Part shown: positions 6,360-42,539 of the stretch, in pieces
Layout of the letters: the number at the start of each line of letters is the position of its first letter
Position numbering within the stretch: position 1 is the first letter of the stretch
The notes under the pieces: generated by a model
What the model was told of the DNA's origin: nothing
Seen by the model: only the letters and a program-made list of their open reading frames with translations
The model's database searches: none
Source: Chloroflexota bacterium
GTDB lineage: Bacteria > Chloroflexota > Anaerolineae > DTLA01
Assembly: GCA_014874485.1 (NCBI GenBank)
Contig: JADBJK010000074.1
Coordinates: 1 to 64,000, forward strand
DNA length: 64,000 nucleotides
Direction: 5' to 3'
Translations under genes and position numbers: made by a program

Positions 6360-7109
6360 ATGGAGCCAGCCCTGACTCCGACCGAGTGGGCGGAGCACTT
6401 TCGGCGGCAGGCCGAATGGACCCGCGCGGCGCGGAACTACCTGTACCGTCGCGCCGACCTGCTGCGCGCCCGCCGTGTGCTAGACGTGGGCTGCGGCACG
6501 GGCGTCATCACCGAGGAGATGGCAACCCGGACGCGGGGGCGCGTCGTGGGGCTGGACATCAACCCCGATTTCCTGCGCCTGCGGGAGGGGAACGGCGCCG
6601 CCTACGTGCTGGGTGATGCTCTGCGCCTCCCCTTCGCCGGCCGCGCGTTTGACGTGGTGGTGGGTCATTTCGTGCTCATGTGGCTGCGGGACCCTCGCCA
6701 GGGCATGGCCGAGATGGTGCGTGTAACCCGCGCGGGCGGCTGGGTGCTCCTCTGCGCCGAGCCGGACTACGGCGCGCGGCTGGACTACCCCGATCTGCCC
6801 CACGCCGCCTGGCACATTGAGGCGCTGCGCCGCGAGGGGGCAGACCCGTTCATGGGGCGCAAACTCCGCGCCCTGTGCGCCGAACAGGGGCTGGACGCCG
6901 AAGTGGGTTGCCTGTCCGCGCCGTGGACGGGCGAGGCCATCCGCGATTCGCTGGACGGCGAATGGGCCACGTTGAGCCGCATCACGCGCGAGTTCGTGAG
7001 CGAGGACGAGCGGCGCGCGGTGCGGGCGCGAGAGGAAGCCGCCATCGCCCGCGGCGAGCGGTTCGTGTTCATGCCGGTCTTCTACGCGGCGGCGCGAGTT
7101 CCCGGCTGA
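6360..7109 (+). CDS. Class I SAM-dependent methyltransferase
   Basis: 249 residues with a Methyltransf_11/25-type fold. Motif I is VLDVGCGTGVI (about residues 40-50), the acidic loop is VGLDINPDFL, motif II is FDVVVGHFVLMWL, and RAGGWVLLCAEPDY follows. The substrate is unknown. The start follows GGAGG. The last 28 bases overlap the 3' end of the convergent hydrolase gene. Confidence 0.82.
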   Translation: MEPALTPTEWAEHFRRQAEWTRAARNYLYRRADLLRARRVLDVGCGTGVITEEMATRTRGRVVGLDINPDFLRLREGNGAAYVLGDALRLPFAGRAFDVVVGHFVLMWLRDPRQGMAEMVRVTRAGGWVLLCAEPDYGARLDYPDLPHAAWHIEALRREGADPFMGRKLRALCAEQGLDAEVGCLSAPWTGEAIRDSLDGEWATLSRITREFVSEDERRAVRAREEAAIARGERFVFMPVFYAAARVPG

Positions 7110-10117: not shown

Positions 10118-10813
10118 TCACAGCGCCAGATTGTGCACCGCGTGGATCAGGAACGACGGCAACAGGCTGCGCGTCTTGGCGAACACTACGCCCAGCAGCA
10201 TGCCCAGCACCGCCAACGACAGCAGCGCGAGGGCATCGGCCGGCGCGACCGGCTTGCCGGGAACGAGGTAGTGCACGTAGTAATGGTAGAAGCCGAAGAT
10301 CAACCCCGACGCCGCCCACGCCCGCGTGGCCCCCATCGCCGATTCCAGCCGGGTTTGGATCACGCCGCGGAACGTGGCCTCCTCCAGAAACGCAAACACG
10401 ATGCTGTTGGAAACGAACGCCCGCAGGTCAAAGGTGCACCCCCTGCCCTGCACCTGCGGCCATCCCAGGCGCGCTACCAGGTACAGGCCCAGCACGACGG
10501 CGACAAGGATCATCGCCCGCCGATTCTGTGGCAGGCGAAAGCCTATCGCAGACAGGGGCCGTCGGCGCACCATCCACTCCATGACGGGCGGCAAGAGCAC
10601 CAGGAACACCAGGTAGGCGCTGAGCCAGCCAGACCACCAAAGGAACCTGAACCGGACGAATGGCACCATAAGCAGGCCGAAGACCACGAGCGCAACTTCC
10701 AGATACTCGCGCGAGGGCCTGGAAGCGCGGGTAAGCGCAGCCGGGTATCGGCCGCGATGGAGCAGGACGATGAAAATCGTGTGGATGGCGATGAGCGCAA
10801 TGGATGTGCCCAT
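10118..10813 (-). CDS. CPBP family intramembrane metalloprotease
   Basis: 231-residue polytopic membrane protein of the Rce1/CAAX-protease-like (ABI) family. The conserved motifs are LEEATFRGVI (EExxxR), a histidine in GFYHYYVHY, and the final IHAVHN segment. These place the metal-binding glutamates and histidines in the membrane. The target is unknown; bacterial members act on membrane proteins or in self-immunity. It is the last gene of a minus-strand run (HD, LysM, CPBP) with short gaps, and is probably co-transcribed. Confidence 0.83.
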   Translation of the reverse strand: MGTSIALIAIHTIFIVLLHRGRYPAALTRASRPSREYLEVALVVFGLLMVPFVRFRFLWWSGWLSAYLVFLVLLPPVMEWMVRRRPLSAIGFRLPQNRRAMILVAVVLGLYLVARLGWPQVQGRGCTFDLRAFVSNSIVFAFLEEATFRGVIQTRLESAMGATRAWAASGLIFGFYHYYVHYLVPGKPVAPADALALLSLAVLGMLLGVVFAKTRSLLPSFLIHAVHNLAL

Positions 10814-15022: not shown

Positions 15023-16390
15023 CTACACCGCGTTGGACTGGGTGTCCAGGCAGCGGTAGGCGTGCTCCTCCACGTACAGGGGGCAGCCCCCGCCGCACAG
15101 ATCCAGTTCTGGGCAATCCTTGCACTTCTCCTGAATCCACGTGCGGTCGCGCAGGCAGCGGGCCGTCTCGTGGTTCCAGATGGAGTCCCAGTCGTCGGTG
15201 AGGATGTTGCCCAGGGACTTGTAGTAACTCTGGCACGGGATGACGTCGCCGTTGGGCTCCACGCACATGTTGAACTCGGCGGCGGTGCACGTCTTGATGC
15301 CCAGTTCCAGTTTGATGGGGTCCAGTTCGCAGTATTGGGTGGGCGTGTACCAGATGAGGCGCATGCCGTTGCGCGCCGCGGCGTCCTTCACGCGCAGGAC
15401 GATGTCCTGCAACTCGGCCTCGGTGAACCCCGTGCCCACCACCTTCCCCTTGCCCGAGTAGATCATCCCGTTGCACGCGAAGGTGCGGATGCCCAGTTCG
15501 GCCAGGAAGTCTATCGTGTCCCCAATGGTGGGGACGTTGTCGTGGGTGAGGGTGGTGTTGGTGATGACGTACACATCGGCGGCGACGGCGTTGGCGATGC
15601 CTGCCACCGTCTCGGCCCACGCGCCAGAGCAGCCCACCATCTTGTTGTGGATCGCCTCGTCGTGGGATTCCAGCGTGATCTGGATGTGGTCCAGGCCGGC
15701 GTCCAGCAGGCGCTGCAGGTACGCCTTGTCCGCCAGTTTGCGCCCGTTGGTGAGCAGGCCGGTTACCAGGCCCACGTCCTCGGCGTACTGGATGAGTTCC
15801 GGCAGGTCGCTGCGCAGGGTGGCCTCGCCGCCGGTGAAGGTTACGTGGGGCACGCCGATGTCCCACAGGCGGTCAATGACCCGCTTCCACGATTCGGTGG
15901 GCATTTCGGGGAAGTTGCGGTCGCGGGCCACGTAGCAGTGGGGGCAGTCGTCGTTGCACCGGTACGTCAGCGCCAGGTCCATGCGGTACGGGGCCGAAAC
16001 CGGCGTCTTGAACGGGTCAATCCGCTCCACGTCCAGGTACGTGATGGGGCACACGTCATCGGTGCGGGTCATGGTCAGGATCGTATCCCGCAGGCTCTCG
16101 TAGTCCTTGCGGGCCTGCTCCTTGCTGACCCGGTAGCGGCGCGTGATCTCGCGGACGGCCTCTTCGGGGGACTTGTCCTGCAGGATGAGGCGGGCGTACT
16201 CGGTGGCGGTCTGGTTGAGGTGCAGCACCTTGGCGGCGTTGATGATCAGGATGCCGCGCCCGTCCTCCTCCACGCGCAGGTGCAGGCGGAACCGCTCCTC
16301 CTGGCCCGCGGGCGACCGATAATGGTAGATGCCCCTCTGGAGCGGCTTCTGTGGCGTGAACCAATCGCGGATTCTATCTACGATGCCCAT
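15023..16390 (-). CDS. Radical SAM/SPASM peptide maturase with fused PqqD-like N-terminus
   Basis: 455 residues in three parts. The N-terminal domain (about 34-107) is PqqD-like: a winged-helix RiPP recognition element with ILIINAAKVLHLNQTATEY and a helix ending RDTILTM. The radical SAM core has CNDDCPHC (C145, C149, C152 for the 4Fe-4S/SAM cluster) and FTGGEA near 187-190. The C-terminal SPASM-type region carries Cys at 354, 368, 376, 386, 412, 423, 426, 432 and 436, enough for auxiliary Fe-S clusters. Enzymes with this layout (PqqE, AlbA, ranthipeptide maturases) modify ribosomal peptides. The ATG at 16390 lies one base after the stop of the Cys-rich membrane protein. Its RBS, GGAGGAGG, is inside that gene's last codons. 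The likely job is cytoplasmic modification of the neighbouring Cys-Ala tail; this is inference from family and coupling. Confidence 0.85.
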   Translation of the reverse strand: MGIVDRIRDWFTPQKPLQRGIYHYRSPAGQEERFRLHLRVEEDGRGILIINAAKVLHLNQTATEYARLILQDKSPEEAVREITRRYRVSKEQARKDYESLRDTILTMTRTDDVCPITYLDVERIDPFKTPVSAPYRMDLALTYRCNDDCPHCYVARDRNFPEMPTESWKRVIDRLWDIGVPHVTFTGGEATLRSDLPELIQYAEDVGLVTGLLTNGRKLADKAYLQRLLDAGLDHIQITLESHDEAIHNKMVGCSGAWAETVAGIANAVAADVYVITNTTLTHDNVPTIGDTIDFLAELGIRTFACNGMIYSGKGKVVGTGFTEAELQDIVLRVKDAAARNGMRLIWYTPTQYCELDPIKLELGIKTCTAAEFNMCVEPNGDVIPCQSYYKSLGNILTDDWDSIWNHETARCLRDRTWIQEKCKDCPELDLCGGGCPLYVEEHAYRCLDTQSNAV

Positions 16391-16391
16391 G

Positions 16392-18092
16392 CTACCGACC
16401 TCCTCCCGCGCACGCGCACGCGCAGCCCGCGCAGGCGCATGCACACGCGCATGCGCAACCCCCACCGCCACCGCCACTTCTCCAGCGCCCGCTGCTGCTG
16501 GTGCTGGGCGGCGGGGGCGGCGGGTTGGTTACCGACGAGATGCTGCCCGTGAACCGCTCCACGCTGGACACGACGCGGTTGGACAGGCTCTCCACGCCCG
16601 ACACGATGGTGTTGGCGAAGGCCGCGCCGGGGAGCGTGGGCATGGTCGGGGTGCGGCCCGCGTCGCCCGTGGATGTGCGGGGGGCGGATGTGGTCTGCGT
16701 GCCACCCGACGCGGTGCTCGTGCTGGTGGCCCACGGGCGGTAGTAGCCCCACCACCGCGGCAGGAGCACCGGCTCGTCGCCGAAGGTGCGCCCCACCTTC
16801 TTGTTCCAGTCCTCGTCCAGCATGGTCCACTCCAGCCCCTCGTCCAGCCGCTGCGCCTTCACCTCCGGCGTCTCGGCGGCTTCCACCTGCTGCCAGGCCC
16901 GGCTGACCAGGTCCTTGTAGTAGGCCACGGAGTCCTTGCGGCTGAACCCCTTCATCTTCTCGTTCACCGCCTTGACCAGGCCGACCATCATCTGCCGGAG
17001 TTTCTTCTCGTCCAGTTGGTTGTCCACGATGGACGCGAGGAACTCCTTTTCGTAGTCGCGCAGGTCCTCGGGGGCGGGTACGTTGGCCTGCAAGCGCAGC
17101 GGATTGTCGGACAGCACGGTAACCGCGCCCTTCTTCAGCAGGCCGAACAGGATCATGGTCAGGACGCGGTTCAGGGGCGCTTCCAGGAGGAGGGCCGCCT
17201 CCACCGCGGTCAGGCCACGTTTCACGCCCGCGCCCTCCACGCCCACCGTCGGCGGCAGGTACTTCATCTTGCGGACGTTGCCCCTGCGGATGCTGATGGC
17301 CACGAAGGCGATCATTGCCAAGACGCCCAGGATGACGCACATCGGCCCGCTGCACAGGATGTCGGTGATGCTGGTCCCGCCGGCGGCCGGGGGCAGCGGT
17401 TCGGGCGTTACCTTCAGTTCAACCCCGCTCTTGAGGTACTTCTTGGGGAAGGAGACCCCCACCTTGTACGGTTGGCTGGGCGAGGCGTCGGGATATATCC
17501 AGGCGTAGGTTACCCGGTTGTCCACGATGGCGGCGTCGGTAAACTTGGTGTCGTGATAGCGGGATTCCTCGCTGGTTACGCCCTCCGGGAAGTGCACCAC
17601 GATTTCCAGGTGCATGGTCCCGTGGGCGTTGGCGCTGTCGTACCATTGGGGGGTGAACTCCATGCTGGCGTAGTCGGGGTCCGAGGTGTCCTGGAAGACC
17701 ATGTTCCGCACCCGCGCCAGGACGTGGAGCGTGCCCGTGCCGCCGGGTGGGATGGTGAACTTGCCCATGTGGATTTCCACGCCGGGCTTCACATACTCCG
17801 AATGGCGGATGTCCTTGATCTCCACGCCACCCACATCGGCCTTGACCTCGGCCAGGTTGTAGTCGTAGTTGGGCAGGCCGATGTCCACGATGTCTATGGG
17901 GTGCGACCCCGGGTCGGCGGTGAAGGTGATGGTGTAGTCAATCCAGATGGAGCCGTCGTCGTTGATGTACACATGGACGAGGCGCTCGTTCACCTGGAAG
18001 CGGTAGTCCTGCGCGGCGGCAGGGGCCGCGATGAGGACCACCGCCAAGATGACGAGCGCGGCTCGCAATATCCATTTCGGGCCAGTTCGCAT
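16392..18092 (-). CDS. DUF2207-like membrane protein with C-terminal Cys-Ala tail (candidate RSAM substrate)
   Basis: 566 residues. A signal peptide (1-27) is followed by an extracytoplasmic beta-rich domain (about 28-240), one membrane helix (about 247-269) and a cytoplasmic winged-helix-like region (about 285-435). Then come a Ser/Thr/Pro linker with a polyproline run (524-529), a Gly-rich stretch, and a tail of alternating Cys and Ala with Cys at 546, 548, 550, 552, 554, 557, 559 and 561, ending GGGR. DUF2207 proteins often end in Gly-rich low-complexity sequence; the (CA)n tail is unusual. With one membrane span the tail should face the cytoplasm, where the downstream radical SAM enzyme works. 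Alanine codons vary (GCG, GCA, GCC), arguing for selection on the peptide rather than only DNA slippage. Whether the tail is modified is unproven. Confidence 0.78.
   Translation of the reverse strand: MRTGPKWILRAALVILAVVLIAAPAAAQDYRFQVNERLVHVYINDDGSIWIDYTITFTADPGSHPIDIVDIGLPNYDYNLAEVKADVGGVEIKDIRHSEYVKPGVEIHMGKFTIPPGGTGTLHVLARVRNMVFQDTSDPDYASMEFTPQWYDSANAHGTMHLEIVVHFPEGVTSEESRYHDTKFTDAAIVDNRVTYAWIYPDASPSQPYKVGVSFPKKYLKSGVELKVTPEPLPPAAGGTSITDILCSGPMCVILGVLAMIAFVAISIRRGNVRKMKYLPPTVGVEGAGVKRGLTAVEAALLLEAPLNRVLTMILFGLLKKGAVTVLSDNPLRLQANVPAPEDLRDYEKEFLASIVDNQLDEKKLRQMMVGLVKAVNEKMKGFSRKDSVAYYKDLVSRAWQQVEAAETPEVKAQRLDEGLEWTMLDEDWNKKVGRTFGDEPVLLPRWWGYYRPWATSTSTASGGTQTTSAPRTSTGDAGRTPTMPTLPGAAFANTIVSGVESLSNRVVSSVERFTGSISSVTNPPPPPPSTSSSGRWRSGGGGGGCACACACACAGCACACAGGGR
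16401..16410 (-). promoter_or_regulatory. Maturase RBS embedded in substrate codons
   Basis: The minus strand reads GGGAGGAGG just inside the 3' end of the Cys-tail gene. The same bases encode the last glycines of the substrate and act as the Shine-Dalgarno for the maturase ATG at 16390, which gives obligate translational coupling. Confidence 0.7.
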
Positions 18093-18126: not shown

Positions 18127-18495
18127 CTACCACTTCGGTTCTTCCACCATTTGGTACGTTGTGCCGCAATAGGGGCACGAGATGATGATAGCGCCCTCGG
18201 CCAGTTTGATGCTGTCCTTGTCCAGAAGCGCGCCGCAGTTCTTGCATTTCAGGCGCTCCATGGCGATGTCGCCGGACACGTCAATCTTCTGGATGATCTC
18301 CTGTTTCGGCTTCGGTTCACGCATCTTGATGGCGATGATGATGACCACGCCGATGCCGATGAGGACCGCCGCGATGATGAAGTTGCTGATGGCCTGGGCG
18401 ACGGGCCTGCCGTCAAACGCGGCGATGAGGAACAGCACGCCGAACAGGATGGCGATTCCGGCGAAGATGTAGCCGATAATCTTGCCAGCGGACAT
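18127..18495 (-). CDS. Small membrane protein with C-terminal zinc ribbon
   Basis: 122 residues. Two membrane helices (about 6-28 and 36-58) are followed by a charged linker. The C-terminal zinc ribbon has CKNCG and CPYCG about 25 residues apart. Such ribbons often bind proteins or nucleic acids at the membrane. It is the first gene of the operon, 34 bp upstream of the Cys-tail protein, so it is a candidate accessory subunit. The start follows AAGGAGG; the longer frame has no RBS. Confidence 0.78.
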   Translation of the reverse strand: MSAGKIIGYIFAGIAILFGVLFLIAAFDGRPVAQAISNFIIAAVLIGIGVVIIIAIKMREPKPKQEIIQKIDVSGDIAMERLKCKNCGALLDKDSIKLAEGAIIISCPYCGTTYQMVEEPKW

Positions 18496-41909: not shown

Positions 41910-42539
41910 GTGAAGGTCAAGTTTGGCCGGAGTCTGGCGATTGCCATCACCATCGGCACAGGGCTTCTCGTCCTGGCGAACTTCTTCGTGCGCAACGAGT
42001 TCCTGCGCCGTGTTCAGCAGACCCTGCTGGACTGGGCGCTGATCCTGGCGGCGGTGGCGTTGCTGCTGGGCGCGGTGAACGTGGTTGCGACGCACCTGCG
42101 CAAAATCCGTGGCAGGCGTCCGGGATGGGTGTACAGCCTGTTCCTGCTGGCGGCCCTGGGCACGGTGGTGCTGCTGGGGTTCTTGGATCCGCGCGGGGTG
42201 GCATCCCCTGCGGTGTCGTGGGTGTTTCTGTACGTGCACGTGCCGTTGCAGGCGACCATCTTCGCCCTGACGGCGTTCTTCATTGCGTCGGCGGCCTACC
42301 GCGCCTTTCGGGTTCGGAGCGTGGATTCCTTCATCATGCTGGTCGCCGGCATCATCGTTCTGCTGGGGCAAGTGCCGCTGGGACAGGCCATCTGGGACCG
42401 CATCGCGGCGGCGAAGGATTGGATTCTGGCCTATCCCAGCACGGGCGGCGCACGGGGCATCATCCTGGGCGTGGCTCTGGGGACCATCCTGACCGGCCTG
42501 CGGGTGCTCCTTGGGATAGACCGGCCACATGTGAAGTAG
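41910..42539 (+). CDS. Polytopic membrane protein of unknown function
   Basis: 209 residues, about six membrane helices, no recognised motif. A helix with LLLGAVNVVATHLRKI is followed by a basic cytoplasmic loop (RGRRPGW). The GTG at 41910 is preferred because GGAGGA precedes it; a GTG at 41898 is in frame but has no RBS. Co-transcribed with the neighbours. Confidence 0.65.
   Translation: MKVKFGRSLAIAITIGTGLLVLANFFVRNEFLRRVQQTLLDWALILAAVALLLGAVNVVATHLRKIRGRRPGWVYSLFLLAALGTVVLLGFLDPRGVASPAVSWVFLYVHVPLQATIFALTAFFIASAAYRAFRVRSVDSFIMLVAGIIVLLGQVPLGQAIWDRIAAAKDWILAYPSTGGARGIILGVALGTILTGLRVLLGIDRPHVK

Follow-up and report, generated by a model that had tools for sequence, protein, structure and literature searches.

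A radical SAM enzyme gene beside a Cys-Ala-tailed membrane protein

The locus lies in a 64,000-nucleotide stretch of contig JADBJK010000074.1 from a Chloroflexota bacterium of the class Anaerolineae (hereafter the window). On the minus strand, a gene for a 566-aa membrane protein (P0002; 16392..18092) is followed by one for a 455-aa RRE-radical SAM-SPASM enzyme (15023..16390; P0001 is this protein with one extra N-terminal residue). The junction reads TAG-C-ATG, placing the enzyme start one base past the stop codon of the membrane protein. The membrane protein ends in CACACACACAGCACACAGGGR (residues 546–566; 16395..16457, minus strand), the presumed core, which is invariant in the type A systems described below. 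A first-pass annotation of this DNA had correctly read both the one-base spacing and the eight tail cysteines at 546–561; in full, the cysteines of P0002 fall at 247, 252, 546, 548, 550, 552, 554, 557, 559 and 561. The first gene of the operon (18127..18495, minus strand) encodes a small two-span membrane protein that contains a zinc ribbon, ends in EEPKW, and has homologues in 41 loci.

Profile searches bear out the earlier proposal that the enzyme joins PqqD, radical SAM and SPASM domains, as the Pfam models PqqD (29.9, cut-off 23.4), Radical_SAM (87.8) and SPASM (41.5, cut-off 21.5) all score above cut-off. The PqqD-like RRE domain covers P0001 residues 21–110 (16064..16333, minus strand), and in the AlphaFold model (mean pLDDT 81) its strands followed by three helices give the N-terminal pattern of an RRE. 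A single CX3CX2C motif, CNDDCPHC, marks the radical SAM domain (15935..15958, minus strand), and the SPASM cysteine motifs (15083..15289, minus strand) take the canonical forms CX9-15GX4C and CX2CX5CX3C. The C-terminal cysteine cluster is present as previously noted, with ten cysteines in the last ~100 residues instead of the reported "about nine". None of the NCBIfam maturase equivalogs (PqqE, SkfB, AlbA, mycofactocin and others) reached its cut-off, the best being PqqE at 143.4 versus 381 bits. The closest solved sequences are those of SkfB and PqqE, with SuiB and CteB also matched, and the closest folds are those of SkfB and SuiB, with CteB also matched and the epimerase EpeE well below SkfB and SuiB. 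Domain order, motifs and similarity support assignment to the RRE-radical SAM-SPASM peptide maturase type.

The membrane protein is signal-anchored and distantly DUF2207- and TIGR04222-like; P0002 itself matched no Pfam or NCBIfam model and no solved sequence. Its AlphaFold model (mean pLDDT 78, pTM 0.44) predicts, in order, an outer beta domain, one span, a cytoplasmic helical domain that we read as winged-helix-like, a disordered linker, a helix pair, and a disordered tail. The predicted extracytoplasmic beta domain (residues 28–222; 17427..18011, minus strand) resembles OST1/ribophorin I (VIA-align Z 17.1 to 6ezn_A) and the N-domain of M1 aminopeptidases; we set aside an M1-peptidase function, as the shared fold is that N-domain only. 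The predicted transmembrane span covers residues 252–271 (17280..17339, minus strand) and, by the positive-inside rule, leaves the C-terminus in the cytoplasm; the helical segment before the tail (residues 489–522; 16527..16628, minus strand) is a candidate leader-like recognition element. The protein is conserved along much of its length, the candidate recognition helix moderately so.

Topology prediction supports the earlier suggestion of a tethered tail that faces the cytoplasm. Nearly all homologues are predicted to have one or three spans ahead of the cytoplasmic domain, with positive charges after the last span, and the few two-span predictions reflect weak peaks in short linkers. Given this odd span number and charge distribution, the tail should remain cytoplasmic.

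Two enzyme–tail pairings in Anaerolineae

Searching 60 class genomes gave close enzyme homologues in two groups, at 45–98% and 36–39% identity. Membrane proteins of group A end in CACACACAGCACACAGGGR, and those of group B are homologous proteins with a different, equally invariant tail, CHSACHSAC... The type B tail pairs with a sister enzyme clade, and a single change on the enzyme tree accounts for the switch between tail types, as would be expected were each enzyme to recognize its own tail. In active enzymes of both types the three radical SAM cysteines and the SPASM-region cysteines are invariant or nearly so, and Cys115 and Cys377 (P0001 numbering) are near-invariant in type A and missing from type B. 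Type A enzymes are also accompanied by dead radical SAM paralogues (L028:10702-11844, L103:5183-6490 and similar), which form two clades that both lack CX3CX2C and retain the N-terminal region; one clade keeps four SPASM cysteines.

Some loci carry variations on these arrangements. In L099, L100, L102 and L109, tail proteins duplicated in tandem accompany a single enzyme, and a gene matching the B12-dependent methionine synthase activation domain lies between the enzyme and its dead paralogue. Distant relatives of the enzyme are encoded by three radical SAM-SPASM genes in tandem at L041:8026-12379 (G022).

The operon is conserved in both types. Type A loci run from the zinc-ribbon membrane protein through the tail protein and the enzyme, often followed by a dead enzyme paralogue, to a methyltransferase, with three families placing the tail protein after the enzyme and paralogue. 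Type B loci run tail protein, enzyme, coiled-coil protein, zinc-ribbon protein. In the window, the class I methyltransferase lies at 6360..7109 on the plus strand and is the orthologue of the gene after the enzyme in genus-mates; its position directly after the enzyme in genus-mate locus L040 indicates that it was moved here by a local inversion. Neighbor families conserved in at least six loci included no MNIO gene.

The claim that no protease lies nearby is not strictly true of the window. An Rce1-like (CAAX-type) protease gene (10118-10813) sits some 4 kb downstream from the enzyme gene and recurs in the genus-mate and in no other locus, but no protease or exporter is conserved in type A loci. 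About half of the type B operons (nine to ten loci; e.g. L036:6656-8695) have an InhA-like secreted protease gene downstream, which may be synteny only.

The tail is constrained at the protein level

All 23 aligned type A1 proteins share the same last 19 residues. Across the corresponding codons, third positions differ by 55% and first and second positions by 1.3%, the latter at Arg only; residues that stay fixed through so much third-position change indicate that selection acts on the protein. An alignment of 39 type A sequences contains the invariant core CACA..CACACAGGGR against a mean column identity of 38% over its whole length, and the type B alignment (16 sequences) is likewise invariant over about 50 residues. 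This conservation extends across families of the class.

These patterns rule out a chance or low-complexity artefact: synonymous positions are well mixed with residues fixed, and reversed-pattern controls for tails A and B returned zero matches. Apart from the tail, one short ORF at 42085-42270 holds the sole (Cx)4C stretch in the window's ORFs of 60 aa or longer.

The Gly-run codons of the tail (GGA GGA GGT) coincide in part with the enzyme's ribosome-binding site (16380-16410), raising the question of whether GGGR is kept merely because GGAGGAGGT doubles as that site. This explanation is ruled out, since GGGR persists, with varying codons, where the tail gene lies after the enzyme.

The tail also appears in an unusual setting in G048, where an ORF encoding a Ser/Thr kinase and an AAA-ATPase (L023:990-4409) adjoins the enzyme and has the pre-tail helix and this Cys-Ala tail at its C-terminus. 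This ORF is either a true module transfer or an assembly chimera, and the genome carries a normal tail protein elsewhere.

Exact tails occur only in surveyed genomes that encode the enzyme

We surveyed 396 genomes of the class, calling the enzyme at an E value of at most 1e-40, and found it in 108. Exact tail A is present in 43 genomes and exact tail B in 36, every one enzyme-positive, and neither occurs in the 288 enzyme-negative genomes (Fisher p 4e-57, a value that ignores shared descent). With a shorter pattern, a variant tail (CACAGCACACACAGGGR) was detected in 22 of the 31 enzyme-positive genomes that lack an exact tail and in none of ten enzyme-negative relatives, the enzyme-negative genomes covered with this pattern. 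A tail of some type is therefore present in 99 of 108 enzyme-positive genomes. The nine exceptions comprise genomes with contig edges or incomplete assemblies (G007, G156, G224, G354, G127 and G025), two that hold only a paralogue without CX3CX2C (G191 and G374), and G006 (85% complete), in which the enzyme is present and neither tail nor tail protein was found.

The first-pass annotation named a maturase with no Cys-tailed neighbor as grounds for refutation. A few families do show this at the locus itself, but they carry the tail gene elsewhere in the genome (G099, G172, G059). In family f5 (G099, G172), family f24 (G059) and genus g12 (G013, G048), the enzyme and the tail protein are encoded on separate contigs and both are retained. 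The proposed coupling of enzyme and tail is upheld by genome-wide co-occurrence, by these unlinked yet co-retained genes, and by the matched enzyme and tail clades. As is typical of peptide maturases, the enzyme has a dedicated candidate substrate gene, adjacent or co-occurring.

Outside the class, one of 370 sampled genomes of the phylum was enzyme-positive. This genome (G405) is 8% contaminated and holds both a type A and a type B system (L164, L165), through either transfer or contamination. A scan of genome contigs matched only a genus-mate. We rejected viral spread of the system, as IMG/VR contained no exact tail and PHROGs gave only general radical SAM matches.

A proposed substrate–enzyme pair and its alternatives

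As the tail occurs only in genomes encoding the enzyme, the enzyme very probably alters it chemically while it is attached to the membrane protein. Our main reading, to which we assign a probability of roughly 0.72, is that the two proteins are a substrate–enzyme pair in which the tethered tail is modified, stays on the membrane protein, and probably serves a metal or redox role. The inserted membrane protein would have its beta domain outside, with the winged-helix-like domain, helical segment and Cys-rich tail lying in the cytoplasm. There the RRE domain would dock on a recognition element, which is probably the helix that immediately precedes the tail, and the radical SAM/SPASM center would act on tail residues. 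The chemistry would most likely be Cys-dependent and oxidative, for example an S-Calpha thioether to neighboring Ala or Gly; SkfB, the enzyme's nearest relative, and the constancy of Cys are the grounds for favoring a sactipeptide-type thioether of this kind. The modified tail would stay attached permanently, perhaps as a metal-binding or redox element by analogy with Cys-rich metal sites and MNIO-modified bufferins, with the zinc-ribbon membrane protein and the methyltransferase as putative accessories.

Several observations count against this reading: the substrate would be a 566-aa membrane protein, unlike a short precursor, and one that passes no curated family cut-off; conservation of the candidate recognition helix is only moderate; G006 has the enzyme without the tail; the co-occurrence statistic ignores shared descent; and a conserved Cys tail could bind metal without modification.

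The likeliest alternative, though we consider it unlikely, has the tail unmodified and acting like a metallothionein, as a thiol array for soft metals or an Fe-S cluster, with the enzyme acting elsewhere or using the tail for docking or electron donation. Repeated CXC (type A) and Cys/His (type B) motifs suit metal binding, as is established in metallothionein chemistry, and a zinc-ribbon protein is a conserved neighbor. However, metal binding does not call for 19 invariant residues, GGGR included, in exact order, and the thiol-array explanation leaves the matched enzyme and tail clades, the RRE domain and the retained N-terminal region of the dead paralogues unaccounted for.

It is very unlikely that the enzyme instead epimerizes alternating residues, such as L-Ala to D-Ala in type A, giving the tail a special conformation with no Cys cross-links. 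The strict alternation of the type A tail, the two extra near-invariant cysteines of its enzymes and the presence of EpeE among the fold matches would fit such a reaction, but EpeE ranks well below SkfB and SuiB, and type B has neither simple alternation nor the extra cysteines.

It is likewise very doubtful that the tail belongs to a precursor cleaved, once modified, to release a peptide or cofactor, as happens with PQQ or mycofactocin: the core does sit at the extreme C-terminus, like that of many RiPPs, and an InhA-like protease gene lies in nine to ten type B loci, but type A loci have no conserved protease, the Rce1-like gene of the window is not a conserved neighbor, and conservation covers much of the membrane protein itself. 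Type A shows neither the short, leader-cleaved precursor nor the protease or exporter of a classical RiPP.

Returning to the substrate–enzyme pair, a broader version is tentative, and we hold it at slightly less than even odds. It casts the system as a class-wide, cytoplasm-facing element that is tethered permanently to the membrane and for which the maturase, with a dead paralogue and methyltransferase, would act on an invariant Cys-Ala or Cys-His-Ser-Ala tail to form a protein-bound metal or redox center in place of a released product.

The system points to radical SAM maturases that work on the tails of full-size membrane proteins, rather than on short precursors that are secreted. A substrate held so tightly, with 19 residues identical across many families, implies that the product must be precise. 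Types A and B also provide two parallel tail–enzyme pairs for work on specificity, together with natural dead-paralogue partners.

Comparison with known systems

The enzyme shares the domain order and motifs of SkfB, SuiB, CteB and PqqE, which give its best sequence and fold matches; it differs from them in its identity of about 20%, in reaching no NCBIfam equivalog cut-off, and in having the tail of a large membrane protein as its apparent substrate. Bufferins are MNIO-modified Cys RiPPs for copper. They resemble the present pair as Cys-rich proteins with a dedicated modifying enzyme and a possible metal role, and differ in enzyme class, in their small secreted precursors and in their Cys motifs.

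The tail protein shares with Pfam DUF2207 (PF09972) a signal, an outer beta domain, a span and a cytoplasmic domain. The earlier label "DUF2207-like" is correct by an indirect route: a type B homologue passes the cut-off (25.2 versus 24.4 bits), whereas the window protein and type A have no match. DUF2207 members are not known as maturase substrates. Our literature search on radical SAM enzymes, DUF2207 and Cys-rich tails in Anaerolineae, with most subscription journals and preprints outside its reach, found no description of the pairing.

A close parallel comes from a 2025 survey of MNIO genes, which reported adjacent TIGR04222 (near_uncomplex) membrane proteins with Cys-rich, predicted periplasmic tails; of the candidate MNIO substrates without a signal, these made up about 40% (PMC12452194). 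Both systems have a membrane protein with a low-complexity, Cys-rich C-terminus and an adjoining gene for a peptide-modifying enzyme, and the TIGR04222 domain can be aligned with a type B homologue (E 1.9e-8); type B scores of 34.2 and 17.5 bits fall below the cut-off of 43, and type A has no match. In contrast to the MNIO-linked proteins, the partner here is an RRE-radical SAM-SPASM enzyme, the tail is invariant instead of variable, and it is predicted to be cytoplasmic instead of periplasmic. The scaffold idea is common to both, but enzyme class, tail invariance and predicted topology set the present systems apart. The parallel suggests a single kind of membrane scaffold to which unrelated modifying chemistries have been coupled.
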